In this document: positions 13,290 to 51,257 of the stretch, piece after piece
How positions within the stretch are numbered: the stretch's first letter is position 1
Layout: the number at the start of each line of letters is the position of its first letter
DNA from: Raineyella sp. W15-4
Lineage (GTDB): Bacteria; Actinomycetota; Actinomycetes; Propionibacteriales; Propionibacteriaceae
Reading direction: 5' to 3'
Length of the DNA stretch: 64,000 nucleotides
Assembly: GCF_033170155.1 (NCBI RefSeq)
Contig: NZ_CP137079.1
Location: forward strand, 2,170,001-2,234,000
Notes under the pieces: generated by a model
Told to the model about the DNA's origin: nothing
Databases searched by the model: none
The model's input: only the letters and a program-made list of their open reading frames with translations
Position numbers and translations under genes: made by a program

Positions 13290-14341
13290 ACCACCGGGAC
13301 GCGCGGGGCCTCGAACGCGGCCGCCGTACCTCCCTGGAGGCCATCCAGGGAGCGGGCATTCGCCACGTGGGGGATGCCGAGATCAATGGCGCTGACGTCC
13401 GTCAACCGGTCGTATTGGGCATCGGTGAGCTCGACGTCGAGGGCGGCGAGGTAGTCGTCGAGCTGGGCAACGTGCCGCGGGCCAACGATGGGGAGCGCGG
13501 GGGTCGCCAGCCGTCGTGCCCGTTCACTCACCCATGCGGTGGCGACCTGCGCCGGCGGGCAACCGATCTCCTGCGCGACCTCGAGGACGGCGTCGACGAT
13601 CGCCGTCGTCTGCGCAGTCGACTCGCTATGCACAAGTCGGTTCCAGTCGCTCAGACGTCCTTCTCTGCCGTGCCGGTACTTGCCGGTCAGCAGACCGCCG
13701 CCGAGAGGAGACCAGAAGGTCGCGCCCAGCCCCAAAGCCTCGGCCATGGGCAGCAGCTCGCGGTCGGCGCTCCGCTCGACCAGGCTGTACTCGATCTGGA
13801 TCCCGACGATCGGCGACCACCCGGACACCTCGGCCAGCAGCGCGGCCCGGGAGACTCGCCAGGCGGGGAAGTTCGACAGACCGATGTAGAGGATCTTGCC
13901 CTGGTGGACGAGATCGTCCAGGCCCCTGAGAATCTCGTCGACGGGGGTGAGGGCGTCGGGATAGTGCACCCACAGGACGTCAATGTAATCGGTACCGAGT
14001 CGCGAAAGGCTCTCCTCGACGGAGATGCGCAGATTCTTCCTGGCATTCCCGGTGCGCAGGAGCTTGGGCTGGGGACTGGCCCCGACGGTGAACTTCGTCG
14101 CCAACACCAGGTCGTCACGCTCGGCCCGGACGAATTCGCCTACCAGTTGCTCCGATTGCCCGGCCTGATAGGTGTCAGCAGTGTCGATGAAGTTCCCGCC
14201 CGCCTCCACGAACCGGTCGAAGATCGCCTTTGCCTCGTCCCGCTCTGTCCCGGCACCCCACCCGGTGCCGAAGTTCCCCGTGCCCAGGGCGTACTCGCTG
14301 ACCCGCAACCCGCTGCGGCGTCCGAACGTCGTGTATCGCAT
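13286..14341 (-). CDS. Aldo/keto reductase
   Basis: 351 aa TIM-barrel oxidoreductase. The tetrad is visible: Asp and Tyr in F-I-D-T-A-D-T-Y, Lys in L-A-T-K-F, and His in W-V-H-Y-P-D. The NADPH-binding C-terminal part contains P-I-V-G-P-R. Such enzymes reduce aldehydes and ketones with NADPH. It is transcribed divergently from the Old Yellow Enzyme gene across a 155-bp region that holds an inverted repeat, and it overlaps the MFS gene by 4 bp. Confidence 0.92.
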   Translation of the reverse strand: MRYTTFGRRSGLRVSEYALGTGNFGTGWGAGTERDEAKAIFDRFVEAGGNFIDTADTYQAGQSEQLVGEFVRAERDDLVLATKFTVGASPQPKLLRTGNARKNLRISVEESLSRLGTDYIDVLWVHYPDALTPVDEILRGLDDLVHQGKILYIGLSNFPAWRVSRAALLAEVSGWSPIVGIQIEYSLVERSADRELLPMAEALGLGATFWSPLGGGLLTGKYRHGREGRLSDWNRLVHSESTAQTTAIVDAVLEVAQEIGCPPAQVATAWVSERARRLATPALPIVGPRHVAQLDDYLAALDVELTDAQYDRLTDVSAIDLGIPHVANARSLDGLQGGTAAAFEAPRVPVV

Positions 14342-40647: not shown

Positions 40648-40691
40648 GTGCGCCAGGTGGGGCTTGAACCCACGACCGACGGATTATGAGT
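40648..40691. repeat. attL: displaced 3' half of the tRNA
   Basis: Identical over 44 bp to 51183-51226; begins GTGCGCCAGGTGGGGCTTGA and ends GGATTATGAGT, after which the sequence leaves the tRNA. Confidence 0.95.
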
Positions 40692-42292: not shown

Positions 42293-42624
42293 CCCCTCCC
42301 CGCGCACGCACGGGACCCGACCAGGTGAAACGTGATGTTTCACATGACTCGGCCTCGCGCCCGCGCACGCACGGGGGCCGGCAGCCGGAGCAGGTGTCCC
42401 GCTGTGGGACACCTCTCGCGCCCGCGCACGCACGGGGGCCGGCCAGGTGTTACCCGAGGTAACACCTGCGACTGCCTCGCGCCCGCGCACGCACGGGACC
42501 CGGATGGTCTGGAAATCGGAGGCGGAACCGGAGGACCTCGCGCCCGCGCACGCACGGGACCCGGTCTTCGCGATCGCTTCCCGGAGCCGGGAAACGCCCG
42601 CGCCCGCGCACGCACGGGACCCGG
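42293..42624 (-). CRISPR. CRISPR-like mini-array: six 28-bp repeats, five 32-33-bp spacers
   Basis: Repeats at 42293, 42354, 42415, 42476, 42537 and 42597, steps of 61, 61, 61, 61 and 60 bp. The plus-strand core CCGCGCACGCACGGG is shared by all six; the 42293 copy is degenerate at its outer 7 bases, as a trailer-end repeat would be. On the minus strand each repeat folds as CCCGTG-CGTG-CGCGGG (6-bp stem with one G-U, 4-base loop), the geometry of type I-E repeats. Spacers are 42321-42353, 42382-42414, 42443-42475, 42504-42536 and 42565-42596, all different. No cas genes are in the window. Four spacers contain strong palindromes, which is not normal for spacers, so a non-CRISPR repeat array remains possible. 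Confidence 0.6.
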
Positions 42625-43099
42625 AGGTATTTCGGAGATCACCGGAAATCTTCCCGGCTCCGGGAAGATCTTTGCGGGATCCCGCAAGATGGTGGGGGCA
42701 CGCACCAGACGCGTACCCCTCCTCGTTGGCCTCGATCGCGGCGAGAGCATCGGTTGCGGACGCCCAGGCGCCCTCCAGCAGATCTGGCTCCGAAGCCGAG
42801 TCGGGGTCAGGTGAGGTGTCCACTCGGTGGACACCCGCGCTCAGGTGTGCAGCCGTTGCACACCTCACCTGCCTCGGTGCCGGTTGCCGATCCCTCGCCT
42901 GACTCGACTGGATTGCGGGATCCCGCAACGAGGGTGGGCATCGGACGCCCAGCCTTCCCGGCGCCGGGAACCTTCCGGCTCATCGTCCAGGTCGTCGGCC
43001 TCGATCGCGGCGAGGGCATCAGTTGCCGAGGTCCAGGGCGACGGGGCCGGATCGGCCACCGGAGTTGGGGCGGGTGAGGTGAGTACTTGGTACTCACCT
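42323..43099. repeat. Cluster of eleven palindromes in two families
   Basis: Family 1, 23 bp, outer AGGTG/CACCT: 42323-42345 (inner AAAC), 42392-42414 (TCCC), 42445-42467 (TTACC), 42814-42836 (TCCAC), 42843-42865 (TGCA), 43077-43099 (AGTAC). The inner arms differ in every copy yet stay self-complementary. Family 2, 16 bp: TTCCCGG-NN-CCGGGAA at 42578-42593, 42651-42666 and 42955-42970, and TTGCGGGATCCCGCAA at 42672-42687 and 42913-42928. Three family-1 copies and one family-2 copy fall inside spacers of the array; the others lie outside it. Confidence 0.85.
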
Positions 43100-43257
43100 G
43101 CGGCCTGCTGGTCGTTGCGCACCTGCTTCTGGCTGACGCCGATGATGGGTGCGATCGCCCGCGTCGACATCCCCGCCGCCGACAGCTCCGCCACCAACTC
43201 CGCCACCAACTCCCGACAAGCATCCTTGTACCGCCGGCTATCCGGCGTCACCATCAT
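42865..43257 (-). CDS. Small HTH DNA-binding protein with a palindrome inside its gene
   Basis: 130 aa from the ATG at 43257. A homeodomain-like HTH at about residues 24-50 (G-M-S-T-R-A-I-A-P-I-I-G-V-S-Q-K-Q-V-R-N-D) is of the type used by ParB-like or replication-control proteins on actinobacterial phages and plasmids. Right after it, codons for G-E-Y-Q-V-L-T form the perfect 23-bp palindrome 43077-43099. The tail (S-A-T-D-A-L-A-A-I-E) recurs as a decayed copy at 42725-42835. The dyad TGTGTC-AAGA-GACACA (43270-43285) just upstream suggests self-regulation. Confidence 0.65.
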   Translation of the reverse strand: MMVTPDSRRYKDACRELVAELVAELSAAGMSTRAIAPIIGVSQKQVRNDQQAAGEYQVLTSPAPTPVADPAPSPWTSATDALAAIEADDLDDEPEGSRRREGWASDAHPRCGIPQSSRVRRGIGNRHRGR

Positions 43258-43269
43258 GATCAATATCAC

Positions 43270-43391
43270 TGTGTCAAGAGACACACGCCATACCGACAGG
43301 GCTGGACACCCACACTCGAACTCTGGTCGTCAACAGTCCCGACAGTGGCATCCGTCATACCACCACATGTCACACGTCACGTGATGTGACA
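43270..43391. promoter_or_regulatory. Upstream operator dyads of the HTH gene
   Basis: TGTGTC-AAGA-GACACA at 43270-43285 contains a minus-strand TTGACA. A 24-bp dyad at 43368-43391 has TGTCACA and TGTGACA arms around CGTCACGTGA, itself nearly palindromic. Both sit in the gene-free stretch upstream of the HTH gene. Possible operators or a replication/partition site. Confidence 0.55.
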
Positions 43392-46322: not shown

Positions 46323-47775
46323 GAGGGTGTCAGATGGTTTGTGTGAGGGAGGGTGCCCTCGTCTGAAGGAGACGACACTATGACTATGGCTATTAGCCCG
46401 GAACGTGCTGAGCGGCGTCGGGCTCAGAAGGAGCTCGCTGACCAGTTGAAGGCGTCCGGGGCGATGGATGAGATCTTCGCCAAGATCGATGCTGGTGAGC
46501 CGTTGACCGGTGAGGGTGGCCTGTTGGGCAGCATGCTGAAGGCCACCTTGGAGCGGGGCTTGGAGGTCGAGCTGACCGACCACCTGGGCTACGAACGTGG
46601 GGACCCGGCGGCGGCGATGTTCGACAACTCCCGCAACGGCACCAGCTCCAAGACCGTGACGACCGAGGTCGGAGACATCGAGTTGGCCGTGCCGCGGGAC
46701 CGGCAGGGCTCGTTCACCCCGATGCTGGTCGCGAAGGGCCAGCGCCGCCTGGACGGCATCGATGGGATGATCATCAGCTTGTACGCCGGCGGGATGACGA
46801 TCCGTGACATCCAGCACCACCTGGCCTCGACGCTGGGTACCGAGTTGTCGCACGAGACGATCAGCAAGATCACCGATCAGATCGCCGAGGAAGTCCTGGC
46901 CTGGCAAACCCGGCCGCTGGAAGCGTTGTACCCGGTGATCTACCTCGACGCGATCGTGGTGAAGGTCCGCGACGGCGGGCACGTGCGGAACAAGGCCGCT
47001 CACATCGCGGTCGGCGTCGACCTCGATGGCGTCAAGCACGTCCTGGGGATCTGGGTCCAAACCACCGAAGGGGCGAAGTTCTGGGCGTCGGTGTGCGCCG
47101 AGCTCGCCAACCGCGGGGTGCGTGACGTGCTGATCGTGTGCTGCGACGGGCTGACCGGGTTCCCCGACGCGATCGCGGCAACCTGGCCGTACGCGACCGT
47201 GCAAACCTGCGTGGTGCACCTCATCCGCGCGTCGATGCGGTTCGTCGCCTACGGCGACCGCAAAGCCGTTGCCGCAGCGTTGAAGCCGATCTACACCGCC
47301 GCGAACGACGACGCCGCGCTGGAAGCCCTGGCCGCGTTCGAGGACAGCAGCCTGGGCCGTAAGTACCCGGCGACCGTGAAGACGTTCACCGACGCGTGGG
47401 AACGGTTCACACCGTTCCTGGCGTTCCCGCCCGAACTGCGCCGGGTCATCTACACCACGAACGCGATCGAGTCGCTGAACTACCAGCTCCGCAAGGTCAC
47501 CAAGAACCGCGGACACTTCCCCAACGACGCCGCCGTGGTCAAGCTGCTCTGGCTGGCGATCTGCAACATCGAGGACAAACGCGCCCGCGACCGCGCCAAA
47601 GAGAAAGGCCTACCCGCCGGCAGGCGCAAAGCATCCGGCAGGCTCGTCGAAGGCCAGATCGTCACCAACTGGAAAGCCGCCCTCGGCCAACTCGCCATCG
47701 CCTACCCCGACCGCATCAACCCCTACCTGTAACCACCAATCGGAAACCGCCTTACACAAACAACTTGACAAGCTC
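46323..47775 (+). mobile_element. IS256-family insertion sequence, complete
   Basis: 1453 bp. Ends are GAGGGTGTCA...(left) and the complement of GAGCTTGTCA...(right); the terminal 26 bp match as inverted repeats at about 20 positions. It is flanked by the perfect 8-bp direct repeat GTGGCCCC (46315-46322 and 47776-47783), the duplication size typical of this family. The insertion is recent enough that both ends and the transposase are intact. Confidence 0.92.
46380..47732 (+). CDS. IS256-family transposase
   Basis: 450 aa from the ATG at 46380 with AAGGAGA upstream. DDE residues are visible: Asp in Y-L-D-A-I-V-V-K, Asp in C-C-D-G-L-T-G-F-P-D-A-I, and Glu in T-N-A-I-E-S-L-N-Y-Q. Full length, apparently functional. 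It is encoded on the strand opposite to the operon it interrupts. Confidence 0.95.
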   Translation: MTMAISPERAERRRAQKELADQLKASGAMDEIFAKIDAGEPLTGEGGLLGSMLKATLERGLEVELTDHLGYERGDPAAAMFDNSRNGTSSKTVTTEVGDIELAVPRDRQGSFTPMLVAKGQRRLDGIDGMIISLYAGGMTIRDIQHHLASTLGTELSHETISKITDQIAEEVLAWQTRPLEALYPVIYLDAIVVKVRDGGHVRNKAAHIAVGVDLDGVKHVLGIWVQTTEGAKFWASVCAELANRGVRDVLIVCCDGLTGFPDAIAATWPYATVQTCVVHLIRASMRFVAYGDRKAVAAALKPIYTAANDDAALEALAAFEDSSLGRKYPATVKTFTDAWERFTPFLAFPPELRRVIYTTNAIESLNYQLRKVTKNRGHFPNDAAVVKLLWLAICNIEDKRARDRAKEKGLPAGRRKASGRLVEGQIVTNWKAALGQLAIAYPDRINPYL

Positions 47776-47909: not shown

Positions 47910-48161
47910 TCACCGGACGCCCCGCCGCGGACCGGCACCACCGGACTGCTGACGACGATCACGACGCTCCGCGAGATCTGTAACCGGAGCCATCGCCGCC
48001 AGCTCAGCAAGCACCTGACGGGCCTCATCGAAGACGTCCTCCACCGCCGAGACGTCCTCCAGGGAGAGCTGCGCGCCGAAGATCAGCCGCTCCAGATCGG
48101 GTAGCCACATCACGACGGCACCCTGATCGGTAACCGTGTGCGGAATCCTGGGTCGAGTCAT
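47910..48161 (-). CDS. Hypothetical protein
   Basis: 83 aa, acidic helical middle (E-D-V-S-A-V-E-D-V-F-D-E-A-R-Q-V-L-A-E-L) and a basic tail. Overlaps neighbours on both sides by 3-4 bp. Confidence 0.6.
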   Translation of the reverse strand: MTRPRIPHTVTDQGAVVMWLPDLERLIFGAQLSLEDVSAVEDVFDEARQVLAELAAMAPVTDLAERRDRRQQSGGAGPRRGVR

Positions 48162-49054
48162 GACACGCTCCGTTCGTCATTGAGTTGTTCGCATTCGTCT
48201 GTGGACTGACCCGAACGATCAAGCAGGGGCACGGCTGTTGAGCGACCGCGGGAACCCTGATCCTGAGGTGCTGTCGGATCGGCAGCAACGGGGAAGGTGT
48301 CCCGGGAGGTCGAACCGGCCACCCGGTCACCCGATCCGCCGTTGTCGCCCTGCCCGAGCACCCCGGCGGCACTGTCGGCCTGTTGGTCGTCGGGCGTGCC
48401 GCTGGTGTCGGCCCGGTCTTCCGGGAACGTCTCTTCGTCCTCCGGACTCGGCGGGGGGTCCAGCTCGTCCGCCGGCCCGGTGATCACGGTCTCGGCAACC
48501 GGCCGTTCGGCGCTCTCTCTGGTACTGATCTGGTGGGGTGCATCAGGGTGCACCCTTTCGGTACGTCCTGGTGCACCCTTTCCGGGTGGATTGGGTGCAT
48601 CGGGGTGCACCCTTTCTTCGTCGGAATCGAGCCATCGCGCTGTGCTTAGGAGGGGAAGCCTCGCTTGCCTCAACGCGTCATTGATCCGGCGGAACTGACG
48701 AGCACCGAAGCGTGGAGTCTGCTCGGTCGGAGTCGTCGCCGACGGCAACGGCAGGACCACGTACACCGACGCGTGACCTCGGTAGCCGCCCCCGGTCTTG
48801 ACGATCGCGCCCTTCTCTTCCAAAGCTCTGAGCGCATACTGAACCGCCCGCCGCTTCGCCCGCGCCTCAGTCATCAGCACGTCGAGGCCGGGCCTCGCAT
48901 TGCACCCGTCCTTGTCGGCATACGACAGCAGGACGTGCCAGACCCGGAACTCCAGATCGGTCACGTCGGCGCCGAGGTGGTGCTCGCCCTGGGCCGCGTT
49001 CCGGTAGGTCAATATCTTGTTGCGGACCTTGCCGCCCATGACCGGGTTTCCCAT
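48158..49054 (-). CDS. Winged-helix protein, probable replication initiator
   Basis: 298 aa from the ATG at 49054, which overlaps the previous stop by one base. The N-terminal 120 residues form a winged-helix pattern (F-R-V-W-H-V-L-L-S-Y-A-D, A-R-P-G-L-D-V-L-M, R-A-V-Q-Y-A-L-R-A-L-E-E-K-G) as in phage or plasmid replication proteins. The C-terminal half is low-complexity, acidic, Pro/Asp/Ser-rich. Candidate for element replication; initiator function is inferred. Confidence 0.65.
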   Translation of the reverse strand: MGNPVMGGKVRNKILTYRNAAQGEHHLGADVTDLEFRVWHVLLSYADKDGCNARPGLDVLMTEARAKRRAVQYALRALEEKGAIVKTGGGYRGHASVYVVLPLPSATTPTEQTPRFGARQFRRINDALRQARLPLLSTARWLDSDEERVHPDAPNPPGKGAPGRTERVHPDAPHQISTRESAERPVAETVITGPADELDPPPSPEDEETFPEDRADTSGTPDDQQADSAAGVLGQGDNGGSGDRVAGSTSRDTFPVAADPTAPQDQGSRGRSTAVPLLDRSGQSTDECEQLNDERSVS

Positions 49055-50174: not shown

Positions 50175-51119
50175 TCACAGCTTGTCCCCGATCCCCATGC
50201 GCCGGTGAGCGTCGCGGGCTCGTTCGTCAGCGGCTGACGCGGCGTAGCGTCCGACCATCTCGCGGGTCTGCCAGCCGGCCAGGCGCATGAGGTCATTCTC
50301 CTGACCGCCCTCGGCGAGCCACATGTGCGCGAACGTGTGGCGGAACCGGTGCGGGTGGACATGCGGGACCCCGGCATCATCGGCACGACGGTCGAGCATC
50401 TGCGCGATACCGCCCTGCAACATCGGGCCCTTCTTCCCCAGCCACAACGCGTCCGATCCGGCAGCCTTCGGATGACTCCGGCGGGCACGGATGTAGCGGC
50501 GCAGCGCGTCGGCCGTCTTCGCTCCGAACGGGCATGCCCTGGGCCGGCGACCCTTCCCCATCACGTTCGCCACCTGCTGTTCGAAGTCCAGGTCCGGAAG
50601 GGTGAGGCCTGCCATCTCGCCGGCCCGCATGCCGGTATCGGTGAAGAGGCGGATGATGGCCAGGTCGCGGCGGTTCTCGAACGTGTTCCCCTTGCACGAG
50701 GCGAGCAACTTCTCCAGGTCGGCCACCGTCATTACGTCCACGGGCTTGACGGGCACCTTCGGTGCCTTCATCCGCTTCATTGGGGTCTCGGGGATCTCGC
50801 CGTCGTCCTCGAGCCACCGGAACAGTTGCTGGACCGACCGGTAGTTCTTCGTCACGGTCGCCGGCGCGGTCCGGGTGAGCAGGTCGGCGAGCCACGCCTC
50901 GAGGTGGTCGCGGCGGATCGCCTGGGCGCGGGTCGGCATCCCCTGGGCGGTGAGGTAGTCGAGCAGGTCGGAGCCGCACTTCACGTACGAGGAGATGGTG
51001 CGCGGGGACCGGTTCAGCGCCTTGAGGTGGATCTCCCAATCGGGGAGCAGCACGGCGAGTTCGTCGGGGTCGACGGACACCGTGGGAGCAGTCTTCGGAA
51101 CCGCTTGACGGATTGCCAT
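50175..51119 (-). CDS. int: Tyrosine integrase of the element
   Basis: 314 aa. An N-terminal SAM-like core-binding domain is followed by the catalytic domain: Arg165 in T-G-M-R-A-G-E, Lys189, His257 and Arg260 in H-P-H-R-F-R-H, Trp283, Tyr292 in G-R-Y-A-A-S. Its start is 63 bp from attR, the usual place. The arm repeat 51141-51153 overlaps its promoter region, so it may control its own expression. Confidence 0.96.
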
Positions 51120-51180: not shown

Positions 51181-51257
51181 TGGTGCGCCAGGTGGGGCTT
51201 GAACCCACGACCGACGGATTATGAGTCCGCTGCTCTGACCGGCTGAGCTACTGGCAC
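51181..51257 (-). tRNA. tRNA-Met (CAT anticodon; tRNA-Ile2 not excluded)
   Basis: Acceptor GTGCCAG pairs with CTGGCGC (one G-T). Anticodon arm GCGGA-CTCATAA-TCCGT carries CAT; T-arm contains GGTTCAAGCCC; CCA is encoded at 51181-51183. It lacks the mismatched first pair of initiator tRNA, so it is the elongator or the lysidine-modified Ile type. The element's right end restores its 3' half. Confidence 0.9.
51183..51226. repeat. attR: 3' half of the intact tRNA
   Basis: 44 bp identical to 40648-40691; covers the tRNA from the anticodon loop to its 3' end. Confidence 0.95.

Follow-up and report, generated by a model that had tools for sequence, protein, structure and literature searches.

Palindromes clustered in an integrated element of Raineyella resemble dyads embedded in early DNA-binding-protein genes of actinobacterial phages

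What is a cluster of symmetrical palindromes, most of them unlike in sequence, doing in a small integrated element? The cluster lies at 42323-43099 of a 64,000-nucleotide stretch of the Raineyella sp. W15-4 genome (contig NZ_CP137079.1, positions 2,170,001 to 2,234,000), which we call the window and in whose coordinates its features are given. Dyads of the same two kinds are found inside phage genes, one kind within a family of helix-turn-helix (HTH) protein genes (PHROG 29861) and the other within BRO-N antirepressor genes. We consider it very probable that the clustered sites are the cognate targets of phage proteins that differ in specificity. That the set has been retained because of its interaction with phage proteins is slightly favored. 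Our best explanation as a whole, in which cognate sites embedded in phage genes form an island set that acts against or upon phages, has in our estimate a probability of about 0.5.

An earlier note on this DNA, made from the sequence alone, had placed eleven dyads here and called their density far above chance. All eleven are located where it put them. Counting perfect arms of at least 7 bp with loops no longer than 5, the region holds 11 dyads compared to a mean of 0.60 in 500 dinucleotide shuffles (maximum 4; none reached 11), and for arms of 8 bp or longer the count is 9 compared to a mean of 0.18 (maximum 2). Equal base composition thus fails to reproduce the density, and other 777-bp stretches of the window hold two such dyads at most. 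A twelfth, imperfect site that the note overlooked lies at 42629-42649 (ATTTCGGAGATCACCGGAAAT) and is a decayed dyad of the BRO-N type. The outer AGGTG/CACCT pair that the note ascribed to six 23-bp sites is present in four of them, whereas 42323-42345 ends in CACAT and 42814-42836 in CACCC. The exact pattern AGGTG-N13-CACCT occurs four times in the 3.96-Mb single-contig genome, always at this locus, and a dispersed repeat family was rejected as a genome-wide search found no AGGTG dyads elsewhere. BLAST comparison of the region to phage and plasmid sequences gave no match, and 97 related genomes gave short, chance-level matches only. A site cluster is found in none of 11 loci that are related through a neighboring protein with an HGG motif.

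An HTH gene reads into the palindrome region (42865-43284, minus strand). Its product belongs to PHROG 29861, carries the motif STRAIAPIIGVSQKQVRND, and has its relatives in phages and prophages of actinobacteria. L-numbers below label the sampled loci and contigs, which are mostly phage or prophage. In most relatives a dyad is located within the gene itself, about 60-70 nt 3' of the codons for the STRAIAP motif and after the recognition helix. Of 50 genes, 36 have a dyad with perfect arms of 8 bp or more at 60-100 nt 3' of STRAIAP; the number falls to 1.4 (maximum 6) when codons are shuffled synonymously, and four control positions within the same 50 genes gave 0, 0, 1 and 2 dyads. The window protein has both the STRAIAP-motif HTH and the embedded dyad. 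Its reading frame is interrupted, and the C-terminal domain of the family (VTGxDGKxY plus a helical tail) is missing or replaced.

A site could be extracted from 43 of 51 HTH genes, with outer bases that are mostly GGTG and sometimes ACTG, and these 43 sites have 31 distinct 5-nt inner arms. Symmetry is therefore retained in the relatives while the inner arms vary, as the note had expected. Its explanation for that variation, namely paired mutations on both arms of each site, is probably not the right one: since sites of the same kind pre-exist in phage genes, mutation in place is improbable, and the inner arms of the cluster look like those of sites that were ready-made. Each of five phage records, whole or nearly whole, has a single AGGTG-type dyad.

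Several further observations were made in this family. Over the 17 kb compared, the one difference between the Propionibacterium phages PFR1 (L334) and PFR2 (L238) is a compensated frameshift at the conserved GLDGxTYP motif of the HTH gene, which may be genuine or stem from a sequencing error; their embedded site is unchanged. At 1317-1405 of L100, the dyad CAGGTGTCGGATTCCGACACCTG occurs twice in an HTH-like phage gene, with a distance of 66 bp between the identical copies, in an apparent tandem duplication. We rejected AGGTG alone as a diagnostic, as a scan of viral contigs for CAGGTGT...ACACCTG hit many terminators and unrelated palindromes in other phages. We also set aside a structure-based assignment of function: the predicted HTH protein has a mean predicted local distance difference test score (pLDDT) of 82 and a predicted template-modeling score (pTM) of 0.44, and its PDB matches are weak (best E 0.27; Spo0J/ParB 0.57).

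Do the inner arms reflect what the HTH proteins recognize? Once the similarity of the remaining domain is removed, differences in the inner arm still track differences in the recognition helix (partial Mantel r=0.33; permutation p=2e-4, a test that falls short of a full phylogenetic correction). Pairs of genes nearest by helix share 3.5 of the 5 inner bases on average, as compared to 1.66 for all pairs and 1.49 when the nearest pairs are chosen by the remaining domain instead. Helices with SKS(T/Q) go with the arm TCCAG, SKNT with TCCCA, SKD with TCTCA, SVGxV and SVATV with TTCAG, DQK with AGGAA, (D/N)Q(S/A) with ATGC, and TRQMVSKD with GCAAC. In L051 and L055 the HTH genes share about 92% identity outside a segment of some 75 bp, which contains the helix and the dyad and is about 45-50% identical; this pattern reads as a natural swap and supports a recognition code. 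The covariation across the family strongly supports the note's proposal of binding sites for HTH proteins with differing specificities. It also suggests that each HTH protein recognizes the site embedded in its own gene, and that helix and site may be inherited or exchanged as a single specificity cassette.

The same data bear on the idea, also raised in the note, that the dyads function as hairpins in a transcript. Symmetry kept despite sequence variation is indeed hairpin-like. However, the arm mismatches comprise 3 of the G.U type, 4 of the A.C type and 12 others, and because they contain no excess of G.U, a DNA dyad is favored over an RNA hairpin. The inner arms moreover follow a DNA-recognition helix, and the region has no match in Rfam, which includes CRISPR (clustered regularly interspaced short palindromic repeats) repeat families. 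We regard an RNA role as very improbable.

The second palindrome design (TTCCCGG/TTGCGGG) has a separate origin that the note overlooked: it stems from BRO-N genes and not from the HTH family. The sequence TTGCGGGATCCCGCAA is found in phage BRO-N antirepressor genes, within the codons of the HFAGSRK motif. A dyad scoring at least 7 is present at this fixed place in 33 of 47 BRO-N genes, compared to 3.6 in synonymous shuffles (maximum 8) and 1 at shifted control positions. Among the 29 distinct BRO-N dyads is TTTCCCGGCGCCGGGAAA of Gordonia phage Sidious, and its core equals the window site at 42955-42970. By analogy with the HTH family, the BRO-N protein may bind its embedded dyad.

With both families in hand, the sites of the cluster can be assigned one by one. 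The own cognate site of the HTH gene, AGGTGAGTACTTGGTACTCACCT (43077-43099), lies directly 3' of the HTH codons. Its inner arm AGTAC belongs to the arm class of L061, and the window helix, VSQKQVRND, parallels that of L061 (VSQSSIRDD, inner arm AGTAG, site GGTGAGTAG). Five other HTH-type sites are classed as foreign. Judged by the inner bases that pair, three of these belong to a sampled class: 42323-42345 (AAAC) to that of L093 (helix TSQMQVSRD), 42392-42414 (TCCC) to that of L043 and L350 (helix SKNT), and 42814-42836 (TCCA(C)) to that of the SKS-type helices. At 22 of 23 positions, the site at 42392-42414 also agrees with one that contig L360 has in its HTH gene. The other two are located at 42445-42467 (TTACC) and 42843-42865 (TGCA).

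Six sites are of the BRO-N type. They comprise TTCCCGGAGCCGGGAA at 42578-42593, ATCTTCCCGGCTCCGGGAAGAT at 42648-42669, two copies of TTGCGGGATCCCGCAA at 42672-42687 and 42913-42928, TTCCCGGCGCCGGGAA at 42955-42970, and the imperfect site at 42629-42649, which resembles the site of L296/L297 (GGTTTTTCGGAGATCACCGAAAAACC in L296). The core of TTGCGGGATCCCGCAA is identical in phage BRO-N genes such as L034-L036 and L258-L261, and TTCCCGGCGCCGGGAA is identical to the core in the Sidious antirepressor gene. Taken together, the element has its own site, five foreign ones of the HTH type and six of the BRO-N type, part of which are found as 'spacers' of an array.

This array, also overlooked in the note, extends over 42293-42624 (plus strand) and consists of six 28-nt repeats, CTCGCGCCCGCGCACGCACGGGACCCGG and close variants, spaced 61, 61, 61, 61 and 60 bp apart, with spacers of 33, 33, 33, 33 and 32 nt. 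The sites at 42323-42345, 42392-42414, 42445-42467 and 42578-42593 lie in spacers 1, 2, 3 and 5, respectively, at varying offset. Spacer 4 (42504-42536) has no dyad. Could the region be a CRISPR mini-array without cas genes, whose spacers were acquired from HTH and BRO-N genes of phages and target these genes? The near-identical repeats, the unique spacers of constant length, a period like that of type I-E arrays and the phage-like site cores would fit. Random capture, however, fails to explain the spacer content, because dyads with arms of 7 or more are present in four of five spacers here and in one of 78 spacers of the host's own CRISPR array. The spacers are dominated by one kind of site and not drawn from varied places in phage genomes, and the array leaves out half of the sites.

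The host does possess a CRISPR array (G000:C1:3259496-3266507; L230, L231), with about 80 detected repeats and a Cas1 gene nearby, but its 36-nt repeat differs from that of the window and no 20-mer from its spacers is found in the window. The identified genes of the element include no cas gene, and Cse1, the one effector searched for in the host, is missing there; the lack of a matching Cas effector argues against this reading, as does the absence of an Rfam match. While the layout is CRISPR-like, an ordinary CRISPR function is not supported, and we consider it improbable. A second genomic copy of the array repeat (L009) proved to be a chance match within a coding sequence, and a scan of 346 genomes for the repeat pattern was uninformative, the pattern being overly specific.

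What kind of element carries these sites? The element, which the note had not recognized, measures 10.5 kb and is delimited by a 44-bp direct repeat. The distal copy of this attachment (att) repeat, at 40648-40691, is identical to the 3' part of tRNA-Met, and the other copy (51183-51226) lies within the tRNA-Met gene (51181-51257). The element encodes a tyrosine integrase (50175-51119, minus strand; PF00589, E=1e-28), an O-like replication-initiator-like protein (48158-49054, minus strand; PHROG 270) and several small proteins without family assignment, and has received a Mutator (IS256-type) transposase (46353-47732, plus strand). Direct repeats GGTGCACCCTTTC lie at 48547, 48570 and 48604 within the coding sequence of the initiator-like gene, a placement like that of the iterons in lambda O. 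No phage structural genes were recognized among the open reading frames of the element that were scanned, and PADLOC anti-phage defense models had no match in five element proteins. With its integrase, att repeats, small size and own initiator, and with structural genes judged absent from the scanned frames, the element has the makeup of a satellite similar to the phage-inducible chromosomal islands (PICIs).

A comparable island is found at the transfer-messenger RNA (tmRNA) gene of Actinomyces urogenitalis DSM 15434. It encodes an integrase, an excisionase-like protein and a putative replication protein, without recognized phage structural genes, and its HTH gene contains five different dyads. 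Three of its four foreign inner arms (ATGCA, TCTCA and AGCAA) are the arms of other phages (L042, L063 and L055). Site clusters are thus present in two integrated elements that have no recognized structural genes, and in both the own site comes first with the remaining sites downstream.

This common order raises the alternative that the clusters are relics, each new helix-plus-site cassette leaving the old sites downstream as a record without current function. Cassette replacement is observed between L051 and L055, and the window HTH gene, with its interrupted frame and missing C-terminal domain, could be taken as such a remnant. On the other hand, an unrelated gene family cannot have supplied former specificities of the HTH gene, so that the BRO-N-type sites argue against pure relics; the majority of the sites are still perfect dyads, and the constant 61-bp array would be left unexplained. 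We therefore find this quite unlikely.

Alternatively, the element may be a helper-responsive satellite in which the cluster is a docking region for several helpers, whose proteins would drive induction, excision or replication of the island. Its satellite-like anatomy, with integrase, att at tRNA-Met, own initiator and no recognized structural genes, would suit this role, as would the resemblance of the sites to phage sequences and not to host genes, and the same habit in the small A. urogenitalis island. Yet the genes flanking the cluster converge on it, and it follows the HTH gene instead of preceding a promoter, a location that argues against promoter control. The island already has an initiator with repeats in the initiator gene, and GC skew and GC or AT content near the phage sites indicate no origin, the cumulative GC skew failing to mark the site. 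The sites that phages carry in their genes may have a part in replication, but neither GC skew nor AT content supports this. We judge the helper-responsive reading unlikely.

We return to the proposal that the set acts against or upon phages. Many actinobacterial phages carry one palindrome within an early DNA-binding-protein gene, of either the PHROG 29861 HTH or the BRO-N family. The element retains one HTH gene with its own site and has, in addition, about eleven sites from the two families that differ from it in specificity. In the least certain step, these would offer ectopic docking sites to the early DNA-binding proteins of invading phages, making the locus one of multi-phage decoy or interference. 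The note had suggested a repressor decoy; broadened from repressors to early phage DNA-binding proteins, decoy remains our leading guess as to function. That the sites serve decoy or interference instead of sensing or hijack is somewhat short of an even chance. That small integrative actinobacterial elements collect the gene-embedded sites of competing phages, from two unrelated protein families, as a natural multi-phage decoy or interference locus, from which phages escape by swapping the helix-plus-site cassette, is a tentative and rather doubtful extension; if true, such swapping would account for the strong divergence of inner arms between phages.

There is precedent in phage lambda, whose replication origin lies within gene O. 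Ectopic ori-lambda on a multicopy plasmid arrests lambda (PMC4488673), and plasmids carrying part of ori-lambda exclude lambdoid phages (PMC3349717). In such ectopic lambda-ori interference and in the lambda inhibition phenotype, extra initiator-binding regions in the cell block the phage, but those were laboratory plasmids directed at one replication type, whereas the element here is a natural island with several specificities from two families.

Several points weigh against our preferred explanation. A single chromosomal copy of each site may be too few for titration of a phage protein, the lambda precedent having relied on a multicopy plasmid. The foreign inner arms TTACC and TGCA have no counterpart among the sampled helix classes. 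Two sites each are found in L060, a 50-kb viral contig, and in L360, a 12-kb contig, so that multiplicity is not specific to islands. In the BRO-N family, covariation of helix and site is not separable because the site encodes part of the protein. Finally, a plain decoy leaves the regular repeat array unexplained. With respect to dosage, the element's own initiator could in principle raise the copy number.

How does this arrangement relate to known systems? Lambda O and ori-lambda, with their lambdoid relatives, are the closest in design, an early DNA-binding protein having its sites inside its own gene (PMC6022878, PMC4488673, PMC7466680). By dyad position and helix-arm covariation the HTH family has the same feature, binding being presumed. 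However, lambda has four to six iterons and an AT-rich unwinding region, while here there is one dyad per phage with flanks that are not AT-rich, and the protein families are unrelated.

Integrative satellites such as the PICIs share with the element the small size, the integrase, the location at a tRNA gene, an own initiator and the lack of recognized structural genes. To our knowledge, a library of foreign phage-protein sites is not a described feature of satellites and matches no known system. Neither gene-embedded sites in these two families nor a natural multi-phage site library was found described in the literature we searched, most subscription papers being outside that search. We rate the anatomy as new, and its function could be read in several ways.

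The arrangement would amount to a sequence-readable code: the target of an HTH protein is written in its own gene beside the recognition helix, making specificity predictable from genomes. A design common to two unrelated families of early phage genes suggests a common need, be it autoregulation, replication or self-marking, of which the literature searched gives no account. For mobile elements, holding the docking sites of rivals instead of cutting their DNA would be a possible mode of competition.

Dyads were also noticed at other loci. AGGTG-type dyads with differing inner arms lie in the linker codons of single-stranded-DNA-binding-protein genes at 285-308 of L193 and 3135-3158 of L110, contigs in which no HTH gene of the PHROG 29861 family was found. 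We set these genes aside as a further site family, since three annotated phage genes of this type have no such dyads. In the integrase-bearing viral contig L150, several unlike long palindromes, one of them AGGTG-type, lie in intergenic DNA within 200 bp (13740-13916); these may be arm sites of an integrase, or else a further collection of sites. Lastly, viral contigs of lower G+C content (L336, L363, L367, L368 and L345) have repeated dyads of the form AGGTGTTAC...GTAACACCT, some in a DNA-polymerase-like gene, which probably represent a separate phenomenon.
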